Part shown: one piece after another, positions 31 through 23,157 of the stretch | Layout of the letters: each line of letters begins with the position of its first letter | Position numbering within the stretch: position 1 is the first letter of the stretch | Assembly: GCF_024662215.1 (NCBI RefSeq) | Contig: NZ_CP096115.1 | Location: 2,864,935-2,928,934, forward strand | DNA: 64,000 bases | From: Methanoplanus endosymbiosus | Lineage (GTDB): Archaea > Halobacteriota > Methanomicrobia > Methanomicrobiales > Methanomicrobiaceae | Reading direction: 5' to 3' | Notes under the pieces: model-generated | Databases searched by the model: none | The model's input: the letters and a program-made list of their open reading frames with translations, nothing else | Told to the model about the DNA's origin: nothing | Program-made: the position numbers and the translations under genes

Positions 31-256
31 TCAAAGGAGTTCACGGAACTCTTCAGTTGTAAGTCCGGCCTGATAAATAATGGACTGAAGAGTTTTTGGT
101 GCAGGAATTTCACCTGAGTGGACAAAGGACAGTTACAATTACATCGTTTTCCCGGTTATGAAAATAGTGATGCCTCCCTCTGACACCCACAGGCTCAAAA
201 TCAGCTTTTTTGAGTGCCTTAACGACCTTTTCCCCGGAAATTCGTGGAAGTTTCAT
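31..256 (-). pseudogene. hicA: HicA-type toxin, frameshifted remnant
   Basis: Read on the minus strand, the start is MKLPRISGEKVVKALKKADF followed by GRHHYFH, the typical N-terminal half of HicA, a small double-stranded-RNA-binding-fold mRNA interferase that carries a catalytic His. After about 43 codons the frame meets a stop. Shifting by one base restores HSGEIPAPKTLQS and QAGLTTEEFRELL, a normal HicA C-terminus. The span is 226 bp, i.e. 75 codons plus one base, so one net +1 frameshift separates the halves. Its ATG overlaps the stop of the hicB remnant (ATGA), the usual hicB-hicA coupling. An assembly error is possible, but the partner is frameshifted too. Confidence 0.75.
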
Positions 257-487
257 ATTCCGGCTTTTGCAGTATTCATTGTGACAGTTACTTCAACCGG
301 AACTGGCTTACCGAGTTTTTTTGCAACTTCAATATAACCGGCAATGGCCTTCTCTATATTTGCCAGGGCCTGCGTCCCAATCTGACCCCTCACTGATACA
401 TCCGGGCAGAGATGGTACTGTTACAGTATAACCTCCATCTTCATTCTTTTCCATCATTACTGTGTATCGAAGGTGATTGTATGACAT
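253..487 (-). pseudogene. hicB: HicB-type antitoxin, frameshifted remnant
   Basis: The minus-strand ATG opens MSYNHLRYTVMMEKNEDGGY followed by TVTVPSLPGCISEG, the partial RNase-H fold of HicB antitoxins. The frame then becomes nonsense, and one base over it continues as TQALANIEKAIAGYIEVAKK and KLGKPVPVEVTV, which is the rest of the domain. The length is 78 codons plus one base. It precedes hicA with a 4-bp overlap, the order of many archaeal hicBA operons. The short C-terminus has no obvious DNA-binding extension. Both members are broken by single-base changes, so the module is probably inactive. Confidence 0.72.
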
Positions 488-844
488 ATGAAATTCTTCT
501 ATGCAGATAATTATTTTATAGTTATATAGGTTTTCTCAAGGACCTTAAAATAATCTCCGGCTATTGAATCTCTGGGTAATGTCTGAAAATCCGGAGATGT
601 CCGGTTATTCATTATGTCTACTGCTTATCCATTTCATTTAATCCGGAAAATTAGTTTTCTGCTTACGCACCACTAAAAAATCCGGCTGAACCGTCAGCGG
701 AACTGTCGGAATTTTCAGTGATGATTAATAATGGTCAGTCAACACTGTTTTTTCAGACAGCGTCCTTATGTGGATGATTATATTTGGGCAGAAAACAGCA
801 GCTATAATAAGTTATTTATGTTTTCAGTTCATATTATGCAGTTA
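488..844. other. Intergenic region upstream of acylphosphatase
   Basis: No gene is supported here. It holds A/T-rich stretches with repeated CCGG tetramers. A possible archaeal TATA element (ataagttattta) lies near 807-818, about 25 bases before the preferred acylphosphatase start. An open frame does extend upstream from the acylphosphatase to 731, but its first 35 residues do not look like the family. Confidence 0.4.
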
Positions 845-11012: not shown

Positions 11013-11813
11013 ATGAAATTTAAATTTAAGATGTCTGTCTTCTGCATTCTTGCACTTATGCTTGCAGGGGTGGCCTGTGCCGGAAGTGTGATCTCGGTTC
11101 CGGCTGAAGGTCCGGATGAGGATGGCGCATTATTAGTGACAGTTTCGGGCGTTTCGGGTGTGTCCGGAGTCTCGTTTCTGCTTGAATACAATGCAGATAA
11201 TCTTGCTGTTGAGAGTGCATCTATAGGCGGTGGATTTGCCGGGGCCAGTCTCACCAAAAATATTGATAATTCTGCCGGAAAAACAAAATTTGTGATTATA
11301 ACAACGAGTGCTATAAATGCTGAGGAAGCTTCTGAGCTTGTAAATGTCAAATTCAGTGTCATTGATCCGGCTGACACCGCAGTTATTATCACTGATCCGG
11401 AATGGTCTGACAGTGTCGATTTCCTGCCGCATGACTTTGATTCTGTGATAGATGGTTCACCGGAACCTGCTGCAACGGCAACAGCTGCGCCGACTTCTTC
11501 CTCTTCGTCCTCTTCAGGTGGGTATATCAGTTATACTGCTGCTGCGACAACGGCAGCTACAGATGCTCCTACAGCTGTAAAAACTTCAGCGCCCGAATCT
11601 ACTGTGGCTGTTTCTGAAGAGCCTACAGTTGCTGCGCCCGATGTAACTTCTGATGAGCCGGCAGAAGAGGCTGTTACTCCGGATGTAACCGAAACTGATA
11701 ATGCAGGTACTGAAGCGGAATCCACAGGGCCTGCCTCAACGCCTGGTTTTGGCGTTATTGCAGCTCTTCTGTCAGTTGTTTTTGTTGCTGTGGTAATTTC
11801 CAAAAGGAAATAA
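11013..11813 (+). CDS. Secreted cohesin-like domain protein with PGF-CTERM anchor
   Basis: The 266-residue precursor begins with a signal peptide (MKFKFKMSVFCILALMLAGV, then ACAG). A cohesin-like beta-sandwich covers about residues 24-150 (VSFLLEYNADNLAVESASI is the typical cohesin strand pattern). A long Thr/Ala/Ser/Pro-rich, probably glycosylated linker follows. The C-terminus is PGFG, a hydrophobic stretch and a basic tail, the PGF-CTERM signal recognised by archaeosortase. The protein should therefore be cut and lipid-anchored outside the membrane. With the downstream dockerin protein it can act as a surface docking partner. An in-frame start lies upstream at 10944, but the Shine-Dalgarno supports 11013. 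Cohesin assignment rests on pattern, not on an alignment. Confidence 0.82.
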   Translation: MKFKFKMSVFCILALMLAGVACAGSVISVPAEGPDEDGALLVTVSGVSGVSGVSFLLEYNADNLAVESASIGGGFAGASLTKNIDNSAGKTKFVIITTSAINAEEASELVNVKFSVIDPADTAVIITDPEWSDSVDFLPHDFDSVIDGSPEPAATATAAPTSSSSSSSGGYISYTAAATTAATDAPTAVKTSAPESTVAVSEEPTVAAPDVTSDEPAEEAVTPDVTETDNAGTEAESTGPASTPGFGVIAALLSVVFVAVVISKRK

Positions 11814-11944
11814 TTAAAATACTACCCTTTTTTTGAATTGTTGTTCTCCGGATCTCCGGGCATTTTAATATTATTATCTATGCTGTTTTTTATCTGAAAG
11901 AATTAATTATTTATAACATTAATATGAATTATTCACGTATAACT

Positions 11945-12064
11945 AATTTACAGAAAAGCTGTAAATTCCTGGGTTGGGGAGTTTACTTTTGCTGCGCAGA
12001 TCTGCCCGGCAAACGCTGTAAATCCAAGTGGAGGTCTGGCGGCTTAAGCATAATGCGGTATGCT
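11945..12064 (+). promoter_or_regulatory. Structured 5' leader with mutually exclusive hairpins
   Basis: Within the 370-bp spacer before the large dockerin gene, AATTTACAG (11945-11953) pairs perfectly with CTGTAAATT (11959-11967). The same arm could instead pair with CTGTAAAT at 12016-12023. That second site also closes a nested helix with GGAgTTTAC at 11978-11986 (one bulged G) that encloses TTTGC/GCAAA. A further hairpin AGCATA/TATGCT spans 12047-12064. Competing partners for one strand are typical of RNA switches. No known riboswitch class was recognised. The coding start follows about 120 bases later behind GAGGTGA. Confidence 0.4.
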
Positions 12065-12183
12065 GTGTTATGTCTGAATTAGGTTTCCTTAAACGGTTAA
12101 TTAAGTCCCGGTGGGCATAACCGGAGGATTTGACTGGTTAGAAGAAAATGAGTGTTATGTTTTAAAAATGAGGTGAAAAGTTT

Positions 12184-15100
12184 ATGAAAAAAATTACGGT
12201 ATCGCTATTGCTGCTGGTATGTTTATTCATGCTTGTGGCAGGAGTAAGCGCCTATTCAGAAATAGGTGTTAATAGTGCTGTTATTCCGTCTGGAAGTACA
12301 GAGGTTGTCTCTGTCTATGTTTCCGGGCTGAATGAAGCCGAAGGTCTGAATTTCAACCTGACGTTTGACAAAGCACTGTTTAGAGTTGACAATGTTTCGG
12401 CCAATAGTGCCATTCCGGGTTCAGAAGTGTATGCAAACATTAACAATGAATCCGGGTTTGTAAATGTTGCTGTTACTAATGGTGATGGCATTACGGTTGA
12501 AGATTATATCCATACCTCTGTAGTTGACATTTATTTCACTGCAATAGGTGACAGTGGAGAGACTACTGAAGTTAAGTTTGATAATTCATCAATTGAATAT
12601 AGTAAGGAATTTGATCCTGTAAGCTTTGATCAGGTTACTGATGGTCGGGTTGATATCAGGGACAAAAGAACTATTATTGCGCCTTCAGGAACTCTGGGTT
12701 CTGGTTTAACTGGCTCTTTCCCACTCTCGGTTGCTAATATCACAGGTGCAAATTATATTTATGTATCTTTGGTTTATGATGGCAGGTATGTTTCAATTAC
12801 AGATTTCATCCCGGCTCAGTCTGGTATTATTATTGAAGATGCTCGTGCTGGAAATGGAGTATATTCTTTTGAAGAACTGAATGGAAATGAATTAAATAAT
12901 ATTCCTGAGGAATTTTTAGAGATTGAACAGCATGATTTCTATGAAAACTGGGCTAGATTCAGTGTGAGAATTCCAGGTGGTTTAGGAGATGCTGTTTCGG
13001 AGGACATTGTAAATATAGAGTTTACACCTACTGAAATGGCAGGGGCTGCTAATATTAGTTATCATTATGGAACATATTATGAAGATGCAGGGGGTTACAA
13101 AGAATTTGATGTTTATGTGCCTGGACAGATAACAACAGCAGGTGGTGGTAAATCACTTGGTGGTGATGCAAAAGCACCTTCCGGAAATCTGGAGGTTGGC
13201 TCTGTAAAAGTATTCCCGCTTCAGATTAGAGATTTCGGTAGTAATTCCGGTTGCTACGTAACTACGGAATGGAATTCTTCCGTGTTAAGTGCAGAGTCCG
13301 TTGTCCTGAACGCTACTGCATCGGATGCAGGAGTTACAATTGATTATTATTCTTTAAGTGCAGGAAGATATTATGCAGATGTTGGTAATCTCTCTGGTCT
13401 GGATACCAGTTCCTGGACTTCGCTTTTGGATTATAGGCTAAAATCAACAGCAAGCTCAGGAGAAACTCCGTTTAATATAACATATGGAGATAGCTGGTTT
13501 GAACCAAGAGATAATGTAACAATAAGTGGTTATTTCAGTTCTGTTGAAAATGGTGTTATTACGCTCAAACCGTCTGAAAAACCGGATCTTGTAGGTCATT
13601 TAATTGATCCTCCAAAGTATATTAAGAAGTTTGCAAATGATTCTGTAAGAGTTGTCCAGACTATGGTCATTGAGAACATTGGAAATAGTCCTGTTACAAC
13701 TGATTTTCAGATTAATGCGACACTTAAAGACAGAACAGAGGTACTGGATATTACTATGGATATAGATCCGGGTAAGAACGTTACTATATATGCAGATGCA
13801 ATTACTGATCCAAATTATCTTGGAAAAACAGAAGCTAAAAAGGTAGTCGGAAAAGATTATATCCAGCTGACGATTAAATCTAATGCCACTCTTTCGCTTA
13901 GCGATTATACTATTGGTCTTGGAGTAGATATCAATAATGATATAGGAGAGGTTAATGAGGATAATAATTACAATAAAACTGTTGCCTACATAACCCGTCC
14001 TGATCTTGTCCCTATTGCAGAGATGGAGTTTGTAAAAGGAATCAGTGACAGTAATACAACAATCATTGATGAAGTATCTGTGTTGCCCGGTACCTATAAG
14101 CTGACATATGGAGTGAACAACACTGGTAATGTCTATGCAATTCCGACAAAACTGAATTTCACATTTAACGGTGTTTCAAGTATCATTGATATTCCACGTC
14201 TTGAACCGGGTGAAAACTGGACTACTGTCAAAAACAATATTGATATTGGTCGTGCTAAAACCAGTTATCGTGTGGAGGTCAATTCTGACAGAGAAGAAGC
14301 TGAAACAGATTATGAAAATAATGTGAAATCGGATACATATGGTTCATACTCTCCGGTAACTGTTGTACTGCCTCAGATTACAGATGGTGATACTGAGTCT
14401 TCAAGGGATGTCTCTGTTTCGTTTACCAATCTGACAGATGGTGTTCCAATTACATCATTTGAAGTAATACTGACGTATGATTCACCAGTTTGTATTAATT
14501 CATCACCGGCAATACCAATGTCCGGTGTGACAGTTATATCACAATATGGCAGGTTCATCATCACAGGAAGCGGAGTGAATATTGTTGATGATACTCCGGT
14601 TGCGACAATTCCGATGATTGCAAGGTCAGATGCCGGAGGAATTTCTGTTCTTGGCTCTATGAAATCATCATATGTGATGACAACCGGAAGCAAGTATGTA
14701 GAACTTGAGATATATGAGGGTTTCTTTAAGCAGGTGAATGAGACGGATGCGTCAGTATCACTGTTTAGCTCTCCAAGAGGTCCTCTGGGACAGAATCAGA
14801 CTGTATCTGTTACAGTTAAGAACCAGAGGTCAAACCCGGTTACACTGGATGCAAACCTGACGGCAAACGATGACAAGATCTGGGAGATGTCAGGAATAAG
14901 TCTTGACAGTCATGCAACCCGGACATTCAGGATTGATACCTGGAAGCCGGCAGCACAGGGTACATATGCATTAAATGCTACAATTTCCGGTGATGATAAA
15001 ACAGATGCGAATGAGGCATCCCGTGACGTGTTTATTGATGGTTATAATCTTGAGATTACAGATCAGAACAGGAAAAACTGGGACTGGTATTACAAGTACA

Positions 15101-18057
15101 ATCAATCTGTTCTTATAAATGAAATGTTCAGAGTTGGTACATATTTCACTGCTAATCAGGCAGCAGTAGTTAATGGTACGCTAAGTATATTCTACTCTGA
15201 CGGTACTCCGGTTGACCTGAGTGATAATTCGGTATTTGAGCTGCATAGATACTATCCTCAGAATATCCAGAAATATGGATATAATGGTGGCTGGAACTAT
15301 ATCCAGTGGTATTATATTACACCAAAGGAACTTGGTAATTTCAATTACACTATCTCTCTTGAAGCAAGGGGTAAGGAAACGTTCGTAAACGGAAGTATAG
15401 AAGTGAGAGAGCCGAATCTTGATATCAAAGTTCTGAATACGACTGTTGTAACAGATACAACGACTGATCAGTATCTTGATTTTGAGATATTTAAGAGGGA
15501 GAGATCAGATAATCAGGATGTCACTATCTATCTTGGTGCCGGTGCTGAAGGAAGGACACTGCAGGGACTGGATTCAATAATCGGTTATCCGCATGGATGT
15601 CCTGAGCAGGTCATGAGTCCTGCATTTATTGCCCTTCGTGTGAAACAGTACTATGATTCCAAAGGAGCTTTAACGGATGATATAAACGAAACTGTTCAGA
15701 TTACAATGCGGAGGGCTCTTGACATGATGAATCCTCCGGATGGATATAATGCACAGCAGATCGGTGATATCGGAGATGGTTCCGGTGGATGGGCCTGGGG
15801 TAATGGACGTTGGTCAACACCGTCTATGTTCTATACACTCTATCCGAATTATGTCATTACGGAATTGCTGGAAGACGATGATCCTGATTTCTGGAATGTT
15901 AAGGATAACATGGATCAGATTGATCTTAATCAGAGTGCAAACTGGCTTATAGAGAAACAGAATAGTGAGGGTTACTGGACAGGTTATGGATATATATGTG
16001 ATAAGCTTGAGTGGACTGGTGACATCTCTGAAAATCTGGCAAAAGAGTATAAGTATCTCGATGACGGTATGAAGATCAAAGTCAGGAGTTCACTTGACAA
16101 AGCTCAGATATGGATGCTTAATTACACATATACTTCAGATGAAGATACTAAGCCGCTTTCATGTATAATTATGGGTCTTACGTCAATCCGTGACCTTGGC
16201 ATTGGTAATTCAACTGACATAAACAGTACTGTTGATGAGATTGTGACTATTATAAAAGATCAGAGACAGCGAGATTCTAATGGAGATTCCTATTGGGGCC
16301 GTAGCTGGGGATGGTATTCATATGAACCAACAGCAAATGCCATACTTGCTCTATACGAAGCAGGCGAGGACGTAAACGGTGAATATATAGCCGGAGGAGT
16401 AAGACATCTTGTCGGAAACCGTGCCGGAAGGTCGTACTGTGGTGGCTGGGGAAGTACACGCTCCAGTGCTGCGGTTGTAAACACCCTGACTCAGGTTGTT
16501 CCTGATGCTGCGATTGACTTTACAGTTGATGTTGAACTTTTCAATCCTGACGAAGATTCAGTATGGAAAGGAGAGGATCTTAAGTTTGATAATAGTCAAT
16601 ACAGTATAACTCATCTACTTACTTCATCAGAAATAGATACTCTGTATGCATTTAGTGACGGTGATTCAGATGGTACAGGAAGAATTATAATATCCAATAA
16701 GGTTGATTCAGATCCTGACAATCAGGCGAAACTGAGTGTTTCCATTGACAGTTTCGAGCAGGTTCCTGAGAGTGTTACATATGATACCGGAATTCCGGAG
16801 GAGTTCATAGACCCAATTGCAACAGACTTTGCTCTTAATGTGAGCGCTCAGAATGAGGGTTACACTCTTGTAGAGGGAGATTCAAGGGACGTTAAATTTA
16901 CTATTGAAAATGATAGGGTTGGTTCTGTCAATCAGACAACAATGATAATTGAGATTTCAATTAACAATGATGTCAACTTCACCGGAAGTGCGATGGGTCA
17001 GGATGCAGCGTATTATGTGAATGGTAGCAGCAGAGTAAACATAACCCACATGTTCAACGAAACCACGAAGAAACTGTATATCTATCCAGGTTCTGATGAC
17101 GAGGCAGTACCGAGTGTCCTTGCAGGAAAATCAAAGTCTTACTATGTGCCTCTTAAGTTTGGAACATCAGGTAATGTCTCTGTAGAATCACGTGCTTATC
17201 CGATGTACAACGATACCTGGATGGCTCTTGGTTCCGGAAATACCTATGTGAAAGGATATGGTAACATTACTCTTGCAGCGGTAGATAGTGACAACATTCC
17301 TGTTCCTGCAAATTACTACATAGATGATGTGGCAAGTGGAAGCGGAACTTCGATTGACAAAGAAATGGTTGAGGGGTTATATTCAGTTGGAATTAATAAT
17401 GGCTCAACATGGGTGAACACTACTATTAATGTGAAACCATCTGAATCAGTGACATATACAGCTCACTTTGCAAGTGATACTACAGTTCCGTTTATTGCGC
17501 AGGCAGAAGGAGCAGTAGATGAGATGCAGATGATGCCTCCGGAGGTTGATGATACAACGTCCAATACGAGTGTAAATCACTGGAATGCCGGAAGAGCGGC
17601 AATGAAGAGCTTCAACTCGACTATTGCCAGCAGTGGAGGTACAGCTACAATTTCAGTTGAAATGCCAACTTTGACACGTGCTATTGGAACTGTTAATCTG
17701 AATGACAGCGTCAATGTAATGGTTTACAATGGCACAGACTGGAATGGACCATATAGTGGAAATGAAATCGGAGGAATGTATAGCCTTGATGGTGTGGATA
17801 CATCTAAGATAGATCAGATATTGTTTACCTTCAATGGAAGAAAACTTGGAGATGTAGATAATAGTGGTGGGGTCAGTATTTCTGATGCTCAGAGAATAGC
17901 TCAATATATGGTTGATGTTATCAAAATTTTGCCGGAGGATGATAAATTCTATGGTGATGTTGATAACAGTGGTGGAATAAGTATTTCTGATGCTCAAAAT
18001 ATTGCTCAATACATGGTTGATCTGCGGAATGAGGATTATTTATTAAAGCAGGAATAA
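12184..18057 (+). CDS. Giant secreted cohesin/CARDB/alpha-2-macroglobulin-like thioester protein with C-terminal dockerin
   Basis: The 1957-residue protein starts with a signal peptide (residues 1-24). Cohesin-like sandwiches occupy about 25-155, 160-315, 325-460 and 720-850, and two CARDB-like domains about 470-600 and 605-720 (EVNEDNNYNKT is typical). Macroglobulin-like beta domains reach ~1080-1130. GYPHGCPEQ follows, with Cys1139 and Gln1142 in the thioester positions of alpha-2-macroglobulin/complement proteins. An alpha/alpha-toroid with GGWGSTRSSAAVVNTL reaches ~1440. After further beta domains the C-terminus (~1893-1950) holds two GDVDNSGGxSISDAQ calcium loops, a type I dockerin. There is no membrane anchor, so attachment through cohesin is expected. 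The start has GAGGTGA seven bases upstream, and a structured leader precedes it. It may covalently trap proteases or surfaces; this is inference. Confidence 0.88.
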   Translation: MKKITVSLLLLVCLFMLVAGVSAYSEIGVNSAVIPSGSTEVVSVYVSGLNEAEGLNFNLTFDKALFRVDNVSANSAIPGSEVYANINNESGFVNVAVTNGDGITVEDYIHTSVVDIYFTAIGDSGETTEVKFDNSSIEYSKEFDPVSFDQVTDGRVDIRDKRTIIAPSGTLGSGLTGSFPLSVANITGANYIYVSLVYDGRYVSITDFIPAQSGIIIEDARAGNGVYSFEELNGNELNNIPEEFLEIEQHDFYENWARFSVRIPGGLGDAVSEDIVNIEFTPTEMAGAANISYHYGTYYEDAGGYKEFDVYVPGQITTAGGGKSLGGDAKAPSGNLEVGSVKVFPLQIRDFGSNSGCYVTTEWNSSVLSAESVVLNATASDAGVTIDYYSLSAGRYYADVGNLSGLDTSSWTSLLDYRLKSTASSGETPFNITYGDSWFEPRDNVTISGYFSSVENGVITLKPSEKPDLVGHLIDPPKYIKKFANDSVRVVQTMVIENIGNSPVTTDFQINATLKDRTEVLDITMDIDPGKNVTIYADAITDPNYLGKTEAKKVVGKDYIQLTIKSNATLSLSDYTIGLGVDINNDIGEVNEDNNYNKTVAYITRPDLVPIAEMEFVKGISDSNTTIIDEVSVLPGTYKLTYGVNNTGNVYAIPTKLNFTFNGVSSIIDIPRLEPGENWTTVKNNIDIGRAKTSYRVEVNSDREEAETDYENNVKSDTYGSYSPVTVVLPQITDGDTESSRDVSVSFTNLTDGVPITSFEVILTYDSPVCINSSPAIPMSGVTVISQYGRFIITGSGVNIVDDTPVATIPMIARSDAGGISVLGSMKSSYVMTTGSKYVELEIYEGFFKQVNETDASVSLFSSPRGPLGQNQTVSVTVKNQRSNPVTLDANLTANDDKIWEMSGISLDSHATRTFRIDTWKPAAQGTYALNATISGDDKTDANEASRDVFIDGYNLEITDQNRKNWDWYYKYNQSVLINEMFRVGTYFTANQAAVVNGTLSIFYSDGTPVDLSDNSVFELHRYYPQNIQKYGYNGGWNYIQWYYITPKELGNFNYTISLEARGKETFVNGSIEVREPNLDIKVLNTTVVTDTTTDQYLDFEIFKRERSDNQDVTIYLGAGAEGRTLQGLDSIIGYPHGCPEQVMSPAFIALRVKQYYDSKGALTDDINETVQITMRRALDMMNPPDGYNAQQIGDIGDGSGGWAWGNGRWSTPSMFYTLYPNYVITELLEDDDPDFWNVKDNMDQIDLNQSANWLIEKQNSEGYWTGYGYICDKLEWTGDISENLAKEYKYLDDGMKIKVRSSLDKAQIWMLNYTYTSDEDTKPLSCIIMGLTSIRDLGIGNSTDINSTVDEIVTIIKDQRQRDSNGDSYWGRSWGWYSYEPTANAILALYEAGEDVNGEYIAGGVRHLVGNRAGRSYCGGWGSTRSSAAVVNTLTQVVPDAAIDFTVDVELFNPDEDSVWKGEDLKFDNSQYSITHLLTSSEIDTLYAFSDGDSDGTGRIIISNKVDSDPDNQAKLSVSIDSFEQVPESVTYDTGIPEEFIDPIATDFALNVSAQNEGYTLVEGDSRDVKFTIENDRVGSVNQTTMIIEISINNDVNFTGSAMGQDAAYYVNGSSRVNITHMFNETTKKLYIYPGSDDEAVPSVLAGKSKSYYVPLKFGTSGNVSVESRAYPMYNDTWMALGSGNTYVKGYGNITLAAVDSDNIPVPANYYIDDVASGSGTSIDKEMVEGLYSVGINNGSTWVNTTINVKPSESVTYTAHFASDTTVPFIAQAEGAVDEMQMMPPEVDDTTSNTSVNHWNAGRAAMKSFNSTIASSGGTATISVEMPTLTRAIGTVNLNDSVNVMVYNGTDWNGPYSGNEIGGMYSLDGVDTSKIDQILFTFNGRKLGDVDNSGGVSISDAQRIAQYMVDVIKILPEDDKFYGDVDNSGGISISDAQNIAQYMVDLRNEDYLLKQE

Positions 18058-18060
18058 GAT

Positions 18061-18864
18061 ATGGATAAAAAATATATATATTTATTATTTCTTATTGCCT
18101 TTTTTGTAGGTCCGGTAGCCGGGAGTTCTGTTGAAATTAGCAGTGATAATGGTAATTATTATCTGAGTTTTCAGTCTGAGGGAAATAATAATGTTGCAGC
18201 TTATACTATTCAGCTGAACTTTACGGAGGATACTAAAATTGTCAGTCTTGAACCACTATCACCATATGCTGGTGCTATAAATATCCAGAATGATGATGGA
18301 TATGCAATAATTGCAGCGTATTCCATTGGTACTCCAGCATCTAATAATCTGGCATCTTTGGAATATGTGGGTTCAGATAATATTGAAATAATTATTCGAG
18401 AATTATTTGACAATAATGGGAAGAGTATTGAGGTTACAAACCCTTCGGTTGAAATTAAGTATACTGTAACACCAACGCCAGTTCCTTATCCTTCTTCATC
18501 AGGATATGTTGCTCCGGGGAGTAAGGAAATAGTAGCATCAAATCCTTCAACAAATCAGGAGTATTATGATGATTATAATCAGGAAAGTCAATTTGCTGAT
18601 GAAAAGGCATTAACATCTGTTCCAACGGAAACTCCGATGGATGAAGAAATAAGGGATGATAATCAGAATGAAAATGTTGATGTCAGCAACTCTGAATTAA
18701 TTGATTTGGAAGTTATCACTGGGGATGGTGTTCCGGATAATGGTTCTGAGATTTCAGTAAATCAGGAACAAAGTGAAGGAAAAGCGAAAAATGAAAGTCC
18801 AATTGATATTATCTTAATGTTGGTTGGCTTAATAATATCACTTATCATTATAAAGGAAAACTGA
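18061..18864 (+). CDS. Membrane-anchored cohesin-like protein
   Basis: This 267-residue protein begins three bases after the stop of the dockerin gene, so it is surely co-transcribed. A signal peptide (IYLLFLIAFFVGPVAGS) is followed by a cohesin-like domain at about residues 22-130 (NNVAAYTIQLNFTEDTKIVS, then SLEPLSPYAG). An acidic Asn/Asp/Glu-rich linker comes next, then a C-terminal hydrophobic helix (IDIILMLVGLIISLIIIKEN). There is no PGF motif, so anchoring is by a transmembrane helix rather than archaeosortase. Position and domain suggest that it holds the dockerin of the preceding protein on the cell. The domain call is from pattern only. Confidence 0.75.
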   Translation: MDKKYIYLLFLIAFFVGPVAGSSVEISSDNGNYYLSFQSEGNNNVAAYTIQLNFTEDTKIVSLEPLSPYAGAINIQNDDGYAIIAAYSIGTPASNNLASLEYVGSDNIEIIIRELFDNNGKSIEVTNPSVEIKYTVTPTPVPYPSSSGYVAPGSKEIVASNPSTNQEYYDDYNQESQFADEKALTSVPTETPMDEEIRDDNQNENVDVSNSELIDLEVITGDGVPDNGSEISVNQEQSEGKAKNESPIDIILMLVGLIISLIIIKEN

Positions 18865-18933
18865 GATAATTATTAGTGATAGTATTTAATAATAGGTAAA
18901 GATACATATTGGTATAAAATTATGGTGATTTAA

Positions 18934-21900
18934 ATGATGTATAATCGACGATTGAAATTTGTTATAACTCTACTATTCGTCTTTTCTGCCATATTGGGAA
19001 GTAATGCAATGGCAGGTAAGGAATTGCAGGTTTCTTCGGCTACAGGAGATGCTGGTGCTGAGATTTATCTCTCTTTCAATAATTCAGAGTTATTGAGCTC
19101 ATATGTGGTTAAGATTATCTGGGATAAATCGGTTATGAATGTGACCAATTTGGATTTTGAGAGTACTGGATGGGGAAATGATTACAATCAGCAAAATCCT
19201 TTATTAAATGCACCTGCGGAGAATGGTTATTATATTGTTTCCAACTATGGACTCAAGTCAGATTATTATCTAAGTGGGAATAATTCTGTCATGAAGTTTA
19301 CATGTAACGCAAAAGTTCATGATGGATCGTCAACAGCTATTTCAGTTGACCCTTCCTATGGTGATAGGTTTGTTATTGAGGAAAATGGTGTACCCACCAA
19401 TGTTAAAGGCCAATATACTCTTGTAGATGGAACCTTTACGACCAATGATGTCATTCCTCCGGAAGTAAACATTACTTCTCCATTAAATAGTGCTGTGGTT
19501 GGTCAGGATATAACTGTCACTGCAAACATTACTGATGTTGGTGGTGTTGATGAGTCCACGATTGTAGTTACCGTGGGAGGTAATGCAACAGCACCACCGA
19601 TTACTACGCCCATTGACAATGGGTTTATGGTGACTGCAACAATATCCAATGTCCCTCTTGGCCAAGATGTTCCGGTCTTTGTAAGTGCAGAGGATAACTC
19701 CGGAAACGAAGGTAACAGCACACATTATGTCAATGTAGCGCAGGCCGGTATTACTATCTCGCCGGAAACTCCTGCGGATGGTTCTTACTCAAATGCTACA
19801 AATCCGGTTCTTGCAGCAGGATTTGTAAAGGTTACAAAGACAACTGTTAGGATGTTCATCGATGGTGTAAATGTCACTGCTTCATGTGATTTCGATCCAA
19901 CAAGTACTGCAACAGATGGTGGAATCACACTTAATTATACTAAATACGGTGTACTTGCTGACGGTTTACATGAGATCGTTGTAAACGGAACAAGTTCACT
20001 TGATCCATTTCCTGAAAAATCAGCAACAGTCACTTTTACAAAGGATACTACTCCTCCAATTGTGACAGTTACTAAAATACAGGACTCAGACGGGGATGGA
20101 TTCCCGGAGGCAAATGAGGATCTGACATTTTATTATACTGCAGAGGATGCGAATCTTGATAAAGTCTGGATAGATACGGTTTACAACACTTCTAAGAGTT
20201 CGGTTGGAATTATTCCAATTGAGATGACATATGGTAACAAAAACGATATGGCATACGCAAATGACCTTGCCGGAAATGTAAATACAAGTGCTTCTTTCCA
20301 TATTTACAACGATTATCTTGCGTATTTCAATGATTCAAGTCTTGGAAAGTTTGCAGGAATTGATCTCTCAACTCTCTCGATGTATGATGTGTTTACCAAT
20401 GCAAATGTTTTCGCATTGAGCGGACCAAATGATCAGATTACCGCTCCGACTCTTGGTGAATTTGATAAGACAGTTACAGGCGGAAGTAATGTAACACTTG
20501 ATGATCGTAAGGATGATCCAATCATTGCCGGTTCACTTCCGGAGAAAGTTGATATTTATCAGGGGCCTACAGGAACATTTAACTTCAATGTTCAGATGCC
20601 TTATATTCAGAAAGCTGTTATATTGGTTGCAAAGACCAACAGTTCTCTTGTTAAAAGCATTCTAAATGATCCTTCCGGTGCGAAATCAATGACTAGTTCT
20701 CAGTTGATGCAGGCACTTGATAAGAATGTAATTGGATTATATGGAGGAAGTAAAAATGCAGTTTCTGGTGAATGGGAGTATGGCTATGAGGTCTTTGCAG
20801 TTGATGATAATGGTACGTTAGTGAAGTCACATACTGCTTATGGTACTATCAATGTGATAAGTGGAGATATGGCCGAAACAATCGTGGCAAATTCCTTTGA
20901 TCTCTCATCCGGATTTAATACAGCCACAGCTACATCAATTAAAGATAAACCCCTTACAGTGAACTATCTTGGAGAAGGAGAGTTCATGATGCTTGCTATA
21001 TGTATGGACAATAACCGGTTCTCTGTTCTTTCAGGAACTCCGTTTGTCATTGAACAGCAGGCAGGAGTTTTAACTTCATCCAGTGGTCCGCATTATCTTG
21101 GAGAAGACATAACTGTCAGTTCCACAATTACAGGTGATGCAATGACAGCAGCGCTTGTTAAAATTGATCCGACTACCTACACAGGTAATATGACAGTCAA
21201 TTTAACGACACTGAGTACTTCATCACTTGAATCGGCATATCTTGTTGCTGATAACAACCAGACATTCATTAAGCCAAGTGAAAGAGCCAATTTCTGGGTC
21301 TCAAAAGGCTACTTTAACTATGCAGGCAAAAACAGTGCAACAAATATACTGAATGTCCCGACATCAGGACTGCTGGCCGGAAATTACCGTCTATACATGA
21401 TGGTTGAGAATGACGGCAATGTAACATCATTTAACGAAACAACAGTGACACTATCAGTGGCACCTCCGGTTGCAAACTTCACAGCAACACCTCTGAATGG
21501 ATATGTTAATCAGGAAATAGTATTTACAGATGCGTCAACTCATGCCAGTGAATGGAACTGGAACTTTGGTGACGGTAATACTTCTACACTTCCGAATCCG
21601 ACACACAAATACGTAAAGATTGGAACTTACTCTGTAACTCTGACTGTCAAAAACGGAGCTTTAAGTGATACATTAACACGTACTAACTATATCACCGTAC
21701 TTGATTTACCTCCGGTAAAGCCGGATAAGGAAGAGAATGTAACTTTAAGGGACCCAGGTACATCAGTTAAAGAAGTTAGCGGGAAACAGCAGCTTACATT
21801 TAATCAGACTGCTTCAAACGGTACAAAAGTCGGTAACACTATTATTCTGAATAACGCTGGCATAAATGTGACAATCACGATAGATTTGCTTACCTGGGAC

Positions 21901-23157
21901 CCCTCCAGCGGAAACTGGATTGGTAACGTAACGGGTGTCAGCTTTGAAGGTGCTCCGGTTACAACTATAATTGGCGGAACTGTTGGTAATGCAACATTTA
22001 CATTCAACGGTACAATGCCCGGTTATAATCCAAATGCAGTGTTTGACATTTCAGTTTACAACAGAACCAGTGATGCTGCAAAAACTAAATTCAGTGTAGT
22101 AGCAACGAATGCGGGATACAACATAAATTCAATCGCGTATTCAGTATATATTGTAAAGAAAAACCTGACAGCAACTGATAAGATATCAGATTCCTATCTG
22201 ACCTTTACCGCAAGTCCGGCATGGGTCAATGCGAATGGCGGAACAAGTGCTATAACCATCATGAGGGAGGCTGACAACGGAACCTGCCAGTTCCTTGCGA
22301 CGACCTACCTCGGTCTGACTCCATCCGGTGATATGAAATTCAGAGCATATTCACCTGACGGCTTCTCAGCATTTGCAATGGTTGCAGTATCTGCAATTCC
22401 ATCACCAACACCGGCTCCGGTGCCTCCAAGCCCATCCGGCGGCGGCACATCCGGCGGTGGCTACTCCGGCGGATTTGGCCCGACAGTCCCGTCCTATGAA
22501 TCTGTTGGTTCAGCAGAACTGATCACAGATTCACTTGGTCAGGTCGAAGGTAATTTCGAAGTTATTTCAGCTGACGGCGGAGCACAGCTTCTCCTCTCAA
22601 ACGGTGTTCAGGCACTTGATTCAAACGGAAGAGCGCTCTCTGAAGTTTCAATAACACAGTCTTCAGCCGGAGCAACTCCGGGAACCAGCGGTGCACTCTA
22701 CAAGTTCGGCGACTTCGTCTATGATTGTCTGCCGGCAGGAGCAACATTTGCACCTTCAATCGACATCAAGTTTGAACTTACAGAAGCACAGTTCAATGCC
22801 CTCAATCCGGGCCAGGTCTTCTCTGTAAGATATTATGATGAAGGTTCTAAGAGTTGGGTTGAAGTTCCGACATACATAAATCCAAACACCCGTGAGGTTA
22901 TAGGAGAAGTAGAGCACTTCACCTACTATGCACTCATGGCAGTCGGAGGAACGTCTGCACCGGTAGTTCCGGGAGCAGAGGTTGTACCGACAGAACAGCC
23001 TACAGGAGCCGTCACACCAGCCGGTGAGGAAACACCAGCTGCTGGTGAAGGAATGCCCGGATGGATATGGGTATTACTTATTGTAGTAATCATAGCTGTC
23101 GCAGGTGCTGTCTTCTACCTCTACAGGGAAGGTAAGATCGGCGGTTCTAACAGCTGA
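18934..23157 (+). CDS. Large surface protein: cohesin-like, Ig-like, PKD and C-terminal anchor
   Basis: The 1407-residue protein has a signal peptide (residues ~1-28) and an N-terminal cohesin-like domain (~30-165). Ig-like modules (PPEVNITSPLNSAVVGQDIT) and other beta domains follow. A PKD domain sits near 843-925 (WNWNFGDGNTSTLPNPTHKY). A PGF-pre-PGF-like module ends in PDGFSAFAMVAVSA near 1155, and a Gly/Ser hinge follows. A last sandwich domain ends FTYYALMAVGG, and a transmembrane helix GWIWVLLIVVIIAVAGAVFY with a short basic tail completes the protein. GGTGAT at 18924-18929 serves ATG 18934 or, with better spacing, 18937. It probably belongs to the same surface assembly as the dockerin protein. 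No enzyme signature was seen. Confidence 0.82.
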   Translation: MMYNRRLKFVITLLFVFSAILGSNAMAGKELQVSSATGDAGAEIYLSFNNSELLSSYVVKIIWDKSVMNVTNLDFESTGWGNDYNQQNPLLNAPAENGYYIVSNYGLKSDYYLSGNNSVMKFTCNAKVHDGSSTAISVDPSYGDRFVIEENGVPTNVKGQYTLVDGTFTTNDVIPPEVNITSPLNSAVVGQDITVTANITDVGGVDESTIVVTVGGNATAPPITTPIDNGFMVTATISNVPLGQDVPVFVSAEDNSGNEGNSTHYVNVAQAGITISPETPADGSYSNATNPVLAAGFVKVTKTTVRMFIDGVNVTASCDFDPTSTATDGGITLNYTKYGVLADGLHEIVVNGTSSLDPFPEKSATVTFTKDTTPPIVTVTKIQDSDGDGFPEANEDLTFYYTAEDANLDKVWIDTVYNTSKSSVGIIPIEMTYGNKNDMAYANDLAGNVNTSASFHIYNDYLAYFNDSSLGKFAGIDLSTLSMYDVFTNANVFALSGPNDQITAPTLGEFDKTVTGGSNVTLDDRKDDPIIAGSLPEKVDIYQGPTGTFNFNVQMPYIQKAVILVAKTNSSLVKSILNDPSGAKSMTSSQLMQALDKNVIGLYGGSKNAVSGEWEYGYEVFAVDDNGTLVKSHTAYGTINVISGDMAETIVANSFDLSSGFNTATATSIKDKPLTVNYLGEGEFMMLAICMDNNRFSVLSGTPFVIEQQAGVLTSSSGPHYLGEDITVSSTITGDAMTAALVKIDPTTYTGNMTVNLTTLSTSSLESAYLVADNNQTFIKPSERANFWVSKGYFNYAGKNSATNILNVPTSGLLAGNYRLYMMVENDGNVTSFNETTVTLSVAPPVANFTATPLNGYVNQEIVFTDASTHASEWNWNFGDGNTSTLPNPTHKYVKIGTYSVTLTVKNGALSDTLTRTNYITVLDLPPVKPDKEENVTLRDPGTSVKEVSGKQQLTFNQTASNGTKVGNTIILNNAGINVTITIDLLTWDPSSGNWIGNVTGVSFEGAPVTTIIGGTVGNATFTFNGTMPGYNPNAVFDISVYNRTSDAAKTKFSVVATNAGYNINSIAYSVYIVKKNLTATDKISDSYLTFTASPAWVNANGGTSAITIMREADNGTCQFLATTYLGLTPSGDMKFRAYSPDGFSAFAMVAVSAIPSPTPAPVPPSPSGGGTSGGGYSGGFGPTVPSYESVGSAELITDSLGQVEGNFEVISADGGAQLLLSNGVQALDSNGRALSEVSITQSSAGATPGTSGALYKFGDFVYDCLPAGATFAPSIDIKFELTEAQFNALNPGQVFSVRYYDEGSKSWVEVPTYINPNTREVIGEVEHFTYYALMAVGGTSAPVVPGAEVVPTEQPTGAVTPAGEETPAAGEGMPGWIWVLLIVVIIAVAGAVFYLYREGKIGGSNS

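Follow-up and report, generated by a model that had tools for sequence, protein, structure and literature searches.

A dockerin-bearing, complement-like thioester protein encoded beside anchored cohesins in Methanoplanus endosymbiosus: anatomy of an archaeal cassette and its possible role in covalent capture

A stretch of 64,000 nucleotides from the archaeon Methanoplanus endosymbiosus (contig NZ_CP096115.1, positions 2,864,935 to 2,928,934; hereafter the window, in whose own numbering coordinates are given) carries a cassette built around a secreted protein of 1957 residues, in which a complement-like MG7-CUB-TED-CUB-MG8 core (TED, thioester domain) is combined with a C-terminal dockerin. The anatomy of this cassette is well supported. 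We propose, with about even confidence, that it encodes a surface-displayed module for covalent tagging or capture, probably controlled by a protease and resembling a pared-down complement C3/C4 or TEP. The core would hold a Cys-Gln thioester which, once exposed, would acylate a nearby target. The dockerin would plug the protein into the adjacently encoded membrane-anchored cohesins, so that target and cell would be linked, and a subtilisin-like protease, encoded upstream in most relatives and usually bearing a dockerin, would probably cut or license the thioester protein or its targets. In the window species, candidate docking proteases are encoded at other loci.

The thioester gene and its parts are the following:
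12184 to 18057, plus strand: secreted thioester protein of 1957 residues, with cohesin(s), two CARDB domains, the MG7-CUB-TED-CUB-MG8 core and a dockerin.
12253 to 12651, plus strand: N-terminal cohesin, residues 24-156 (Pfam PF00963).
13177 to 13554, plus strand: possible, weaker cohesin-like domain, residues 332-457 (hhalign 96.9%, only 41 columns aligned).
13579 to 14343, plus strand: two CARDB (Ig-like) domains, residues 466-720 (Pfam CARDB 32.6 bits, two stretches).
14347 to 14733, plus strand: cohesin-like domain ahead of the core, residues 722-850 (hhalign 96.1%).
15046 to 15543, plus strand: MG7 and first CUB part, about residues 955-1120 (limits set by aligning the AlphaFold2 model structurally to TEP1/C5).
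15544 to 16512, plus strand: TED alpha/alpha-toroid, about residues 1121-1443 (Pfam TED_complement, sequence profile A3, structural alignment).
15598 to 15609, plus strand: CPEQ thioester motif, C1139-Q1142, within GYPHGCPEQ.
16000 to 16002, plus strand: Asp1273, at the position of the C3 catalytic His (gapless match, ten residues past a Gly).
16513 to 17253, plus strand: second CUB part and MG8, about residues 1444-1690 (AlphaFold2 model, structural alignment).
17833 to 18054, plus strand: dockerin, residues 1884-1957, two Ca-loop/helix repeats (Pfam Dockerin_1).

The initial annotation had singled out the 1957-residue reading frame for its GYPHGCPEQ motif (Cys1139/Gln1142) and two GDVDNSGG calcium loops at the C-terminus, and both observations were confirmed. 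The CxEQ signature was retained in 25 of 25 homologues of the order Methanomicrobiales, and the two loops, which close the protein, belong to the duplicated Ca-binding loop-helix of a type I dockerin recognised by Pfam (Dockerin_1, cut-off 22.9 bits; the genome scan gave 29.8 bits and the scan of the whole protein 22.8). The protein starts with a signal peptide, matched the Pfam family TED_complement with 24.0 bits (cut-off 22), and carries a GGWGSTR motif at W1422. Its N-terminal cohesin was detected at 12262-12651 in the genome scan (PF00963, 33.2 bits, above the cut-off of 24.1). A single-sequence phmmer search with this domain gave nothing useful; a profile of the Pfam-supported cohesin set (A9) recovered PDB cohesins, including 2xdh of A. 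fulgidus at 6.4e-8. We place the protein among the TED-domain members of the A2M/complement superfamily and do not class it as an alpha-2-macroglobulin (A2M).

Residues 848-1690 were modelled with AlphaFold2 from nine sequences (model m891b07401d7b, mean predicted local distance difference test (pLDDT) 72), giving a toroid of about a dozen helices between beta domains. The best Foldseek matches to this model were CD109 (E 7.4e-27), A2ML1, TEP1, A2M and C5, with E values to about 1e-22. With a second structural aligner (VIA), the whole model matched TEP1, C3 and C5 over model positions 108..841; 574 residues were aligned to TEP1 (Z 23.8, root-mean-square deviation 8.0) and 279 residues to the TED of C4A alone (C4Adg; Z 22.1, deviation 3.8). 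At the sequence level, a TED profile (A3) recovered CD109, TEP1, A2ML1, C4 and A2M. From these matches we conclude that the order MG7-CUB-TED-CUB-MG8 is present in the model, with approximate domain limits; a TED inserted in CUB and followed by MG8 is assigned with moderate confidence, given the mean pLDDT. The toroid around Cys1139 anticipated by the initial annotation was thus recovered. That annotation had missed the MG7, CUB and MG8 domains beyond it, the protein's own N-terminal cohesin, and the protease gene found upstream in most relatives. Squalene-hopene cyclases ranked near the top of the sequence matches to the repeat part, and a cyclase-like or other non-thioester toroid with an incidental CxEQ is barely credible, as the motif is invariant, the CUB and MG8 flanks match complement, and matches to C4, TEP1 and A2M extend over the whole TED; the squalene-cyclase reading was rejected on the first two of these grounds.

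Homologues were searched in 232 genomes of the order with a TED threshold of E <= 1e-20. TED was present in 25 of them, always as one copy per genome, and in 7 of 40 genera. Two types were distinguished: type A (GYPHGCPEQ, 1699-1990 residues) in 8 genomes including that of the window, and type B (GYPYGCVEQ, about 1270-1300 residues) in 17 genomes, 16 of which were read with their flanks, making 24 loci read in all. Scanning 8 type A and 11 type B members gave a TED match in each. Type A members all carry the cohesin-like domain ahead of the core (8 of 8) and a Pfam dockerin (8 of 8); the Pfam dockerin was found in 3 of the 11 type B members, and those below its cut-off still keep a recognisable duplicated loop-helix tail. 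The gene order is conserved: an upstream gene, the TED protein, a small anchored cohesin protein and a large anchored Ig/PKD protein. In the window's genome, a single contig of 3.16 Mb, a CxEQ pattern with up to two mismatches occurs once.

Other TED-like sequences and neighbours were also noted (loci are denoted by L and a number). The same genome encodes a 674-residue protein (L050:5901-7925, C1:272338) that matches TED/toroid weakly and has no listed CxEQ, and proteins like it, of 660-770 residues, occur widely across the order. On a contig assigned by binning to Nanohaloarchaea (L052:3-4980), a TED resembling type A ends in a dockerin-like tail and is followed by two cohesin-looking proteins, an arrangement that could reflect a binning error or a transfer. 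A DUF1616-type gene lies beside many cassettes, being confirmed by Pfam in L037 (12885-13865) and recognised by sequence likeness in L041-L043, L046, L049 and L176.

The ancestral role of the A2M family in bacteria is thought to be protease inhibition, and a protease gene adjoins the thioester gene, so an A2M-style inhibitor trapping foreign proteases or the neighbouring subtilisin-like (S8) protease was considered. However, the MG1-6 ring and bait region ahead of MG7, which are the hallmark of the A2M snap-trap, were absent from type B and from the window protein, MG1-6 being excluded on length and domain assignment. In type B, the Cys lies at residue 434-448, hence only about 270 residues, one cohesin included, precede MG7, which leaves no room for an MG1-6 cage or a bait; in the window protein, the N-terminal half was assigned to cohesin and CARDB domains, and no length-variable bait-like insert was seen in the type A core. 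An inhibitor is thus unlikely. The cassette had originally been read as a covalent trap or adhesin on a dockerin-cohesin display outside any cellulosome; this fits the TED fold, the CxEQ, the dockerin and the anchored cohesin-like neighbours, whose type changes along with that of TED, whereas the A2M-type protease trap becomes the less likely half of that proposal.

The residue at the catalytic His position differed between the types. This position was taken as ten residues past the Gly of a W-L...G-F/W motif, without gaps. The rule was checked on segments of human C3 and A2M against PDB sequences: it reaches the catalytic His in C3 and an Asn in A2M, and CD109 and A2ML1 have His. A profile for alignment of the His region (A17) returned only the CxEQ region and chance matches. 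In type B, His was found in 16 of the 16 members read (two by eye), and in type A, Asn was found in the other seven members of the order and Asp1273 in the window, so that type A resembles A2M and C4A at this position. In C3, C4A, C4B and A2M, His favours hydroxyl targets and Asp or Asn favours amines. By analogy, type B would likely favour hydroxyls or glycans, and type A, with Asn or the Asp of the window, amines.

An S8 protease gene lies directly upstream of the TED gene in 19 of the 24 loci. All of these proteases retain the Ser motif, and all but one, truncated where its contig stops, retain the D and H motifs; I9, CARDB, cohesin (often) and dockerin domains were detected by Pfam in those sampled. 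The association extends beyond the order, where we found an S8-dockerin gene followed by TED and two anchored proteins in one archaeon (L174), an S8-dockerin gene nearby in another (L176), and, in a third (L175), one open frame of 2668 residues that encodes both S8 and TED. This last frame (L175:9401-17407, minus strand) also includes an MG4-like match and PKD, its TED has CxEQ, and it lies beside a small protein with a PGF-CTERM-like end. In a type A cassette (L034:563-4558), the upstream gene encodes a DUF7948/SBBP/PKD dockerin protein in place of the S8 protease. Two S8-dockerin reading frames, of 772 and 2499 residues, are encoded elsewhere in the window's genome. At the same site, a congener (G025) encodes a protein of 920 residues. 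Its C-terminal half shares 56% identity with the S8 accessory half, and its first 765 residues share 34% with residues 1-770 of the window TED protein, which suggests exchange or fusion of accessory portions of the protease and TED genes.

These data also bear on a constitutive covalent adhesin, whose thioester would bind surfaces or partner cells (syntrophs, a host) without proteolysis while the S8 protease only matures surface proteins. Gram-positive bacteria have thioester adhesins (PMC4450167), and the missing MG1-6 ring and bait region, the anchored cohesins and the adhesion-type PKD/Ig neighbours would suit such a role. Nevertheless, the domains that shield the thioester in complement, MG8 and the two CUB parts, are conserved, and the protease linkage spans families and reaches fusion to TED in one archaeon, so we hold a constitutive adhesin to be doubtful.

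The anchoring arm of the proposed capture module would depend on the neighbouring genes:
11013 to 11813, plus strand (frame open from 10944): signal peptide, cohesin-like domain (hhalign 98.3%) and C-terminal PGF-CTERM-like/transmembrane anchor.
18061 to 18864, plus strand: signal peptide, cohesin (AlphaFold2 fold), long linker and C-terminal transmembrane segment; candidate private anchor.
18934 to 23157, plus strand: 1407-residue protein with an N-terminal cohesin-like domain (19015-19449), PKD, a C-terminal domain and a transmembrane segment (hhalign, Pfam).

A 3-bp gap separates the thioester gene from 18061. PKD was detected in the 18934 protein with 55.6 bits, and the PGF_CTERM match of the 11013 protein (19.7 bits) fell under the cut-off of 24.5. 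As the Pfam cohesin model placed none of these three proteins above its cut-off, profile-profile comparison and fold were used. Against cohesin set A9, hhalign gave 98.3% for 11013, 96.6% for 18061 and 97.5% for 18934, and 0.1% and 0.8% for CARDB beta-sandwiches used as negative controls; profiles of the full-length small anchored proteins gave nothing useful against PDB. The 18061 domain, modelled alone (AlphaFold2, pLDDT 89.9), had cohesins as 46 of its 50 best PDB matches, with Z up to 10.6. The model thus has the beta-sandwich fold of a cohesin, and the cohesin-like domains noticed at the outset in the genes on both sides were upheld. A promoter scan gave chance-level matches to a sigma-70 consensus, which is not applicable to archaea.

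The TED dockerin is an outlier in its own genome, with a mean identity of 34% to 14 other dockerins, which share 70% among themselves. This divergence suggests that it probably has its own partner, and the cassette cohesins are the obvious candidates. In the second, genome-wide class, at least 14 dockerins share a nearly identical motif at the C-terminus (ADFNGNG..D.GDAAKIAWYF). The long surface proteins that carry them include some with PKD or S8 domains and are often encoded in tandem clusters (L185-L192; C1 at about 40-56 kb, 80-91 kb, 102-111 kb, 719-728 kb, 2.44 Mb and others). Near 1.096 Mb of C1, on the minus strand (L051/L193), an open frame of 9331 residues with cohesin matches and a C-terminal transmembrane segment is a candidate scaffold for them.

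Comparison of the window with G025, which carries a type B cassette at the same site, delimited an exchanged region:
12261 to 22426, strand not applicable: segment replaced between the window genome and G025, with DNA flanks aligning at 82-87% identity.

DNA similarity ends about 78 bp into the TED gene and resumes inside the last cassette gene, of which the final 228 residues are 82% identical. The flanking proteins are 76-94% identical, whereas the TED proteins, like the small proteins, share 22%. Two further genera also contain both types: in the pairs with a match at the C-terminal end of the last gene, the DNA there was 72-86% identical, and the rest did not align. In a tree of the small cohesin domains, types A (8) and B (13) separated cleanly (support 99/97), the 18061-type cohesin following the TED type without exception, and the window grouped with another family of the order and not with its congener. 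Together, the replaced segment and this placement point to replacement of the cassette by horizontal transfer. Some 40 kb from the cassette lies a mobile element, a DDE transposase gene (PF01609; 62372-63982, minus strand).

Exchange of a whole cassette at one site is what would be expected for a system under pressure to vary. It speaks less for a cell-envelope cross-linker, in which the thioester would attach the protein to glycoproteins or the S-layer of the same cell to build a sheath. Every part of the cassette is secreted or anchored, there is a single copy per genome, and the anchor domain at the cassette end is conserved, as such a role would predict; yet the patchy spread (25/232 genomes) and the allelic exchange would be unusual for a core envelope part, and we find a cross-linker quite improbable. 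A more specific form of covalent capture can be put forward only tentatively: an archaeal complement analogue in which a docked subtilisin activates a docked C3/C4-like protein on a cohesin scaffold to tag foreign cells, viruses or glycans covalently, with two isotypes that, comparably to human C4A and C4B, differ in the residue at the catalytic His position and whose whole cassettes are swapped at a single locus.

Several observations weigh against protease-controlled capture. The thioester loop of the core model has low confidence (pLDDT < 50). No S8 gene was found at the window's own locus, the G025 locus has only the accessory half of one, and none lies directly upstream in L034, L037 or L038, although L038 has an S8 gene at a distance of two genes. 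In the window's genome, the dockerins of the S8 proteases differ in class from that of the TED protein (34% against 70% mean identity), so the thioester protein and these proteases may not share one scaffold. Finally, the joint change of TED and cohesin type could reflect co-inheritance of the cassette alone.

If the proposed capture module is correct, archaea would possess the complement/TEP core together with a partner protease and an inbuilt means of holding it on the cell, and the origin of thioester immunity would become testable in culturable methanogens. A concrete cargo and candidate partners would be gained for the dockerins and cohesins of archaea, whose use outside the cellulosome is a long-standing question, and types A and B predict different, measurable target chemistry.

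Archaeal TED/CxEQ proteins were reported in 2021 in 24 archaeal genomes, Methanomicrobia being named among the hosts, near Ig proteins and endoproteases, and an immune role was suggested (PMC8416519). The proteins described there share with ours the TED with CxEQ, Ig domains, a signal peptide and, in some genomes, surface-protein and endoprotease neighbours. The main text of that paper mentions no dockerin, cohesin, subtilisin or subtilase, and presents no ordered cassette, no two types at one locus and no His/Asn/Asp pattern; some cassette proteins may already be listed in its supplements. The open-licence literature yielded no paper joining dockerin, archaea and alpha-2-macroglobulin. The novelty claimed in the initial annotation is accordingly narrowed: thioester proteins in archaea were known, and the dockerin-cohesin-protease thioester cassette is new as far as this literature could be searched.

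Archaeal dockerins and cohesins have been discussed in ANME (anaerobic methanotrophic archaea) without thioester proteins (PMC9012536); the non-cellulosomal proteins of A. fulgidus and ANME likewise bear these modules on secreted proteins, with 2xdh as a cohesin relative, but no thioester core has been reported in them. The E. coli A2M YfhM/ECAM has a TED with a YPYGC-EQ motif, but is a lipoprotein that has the complete MG array and a bait region and lacks a dockerin. The VARTIG modules of Thermococcales (PMC8416519) are also variable, Ig-rich surface loci with a suggested role in immunity or recognition; their C-terminus varies, whereas in the cassette reported here the C-terminal anchor domain is constant, the rest is exchanged and TED is present. 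Complement C3/C4 and insect TEP1 share with the archaeal protein the MG7-CUB-TED-CUB-MG8 order, the CxEQ, a His or Asp/Asn at the catalytic position and a protease partner, which in archaea is known from genes alone. In contrast to them, the archaeal protein has no MG1-6 ring, anaphylatoxin or bait region, and has gained cohesin, CARDB and dockerin domains.
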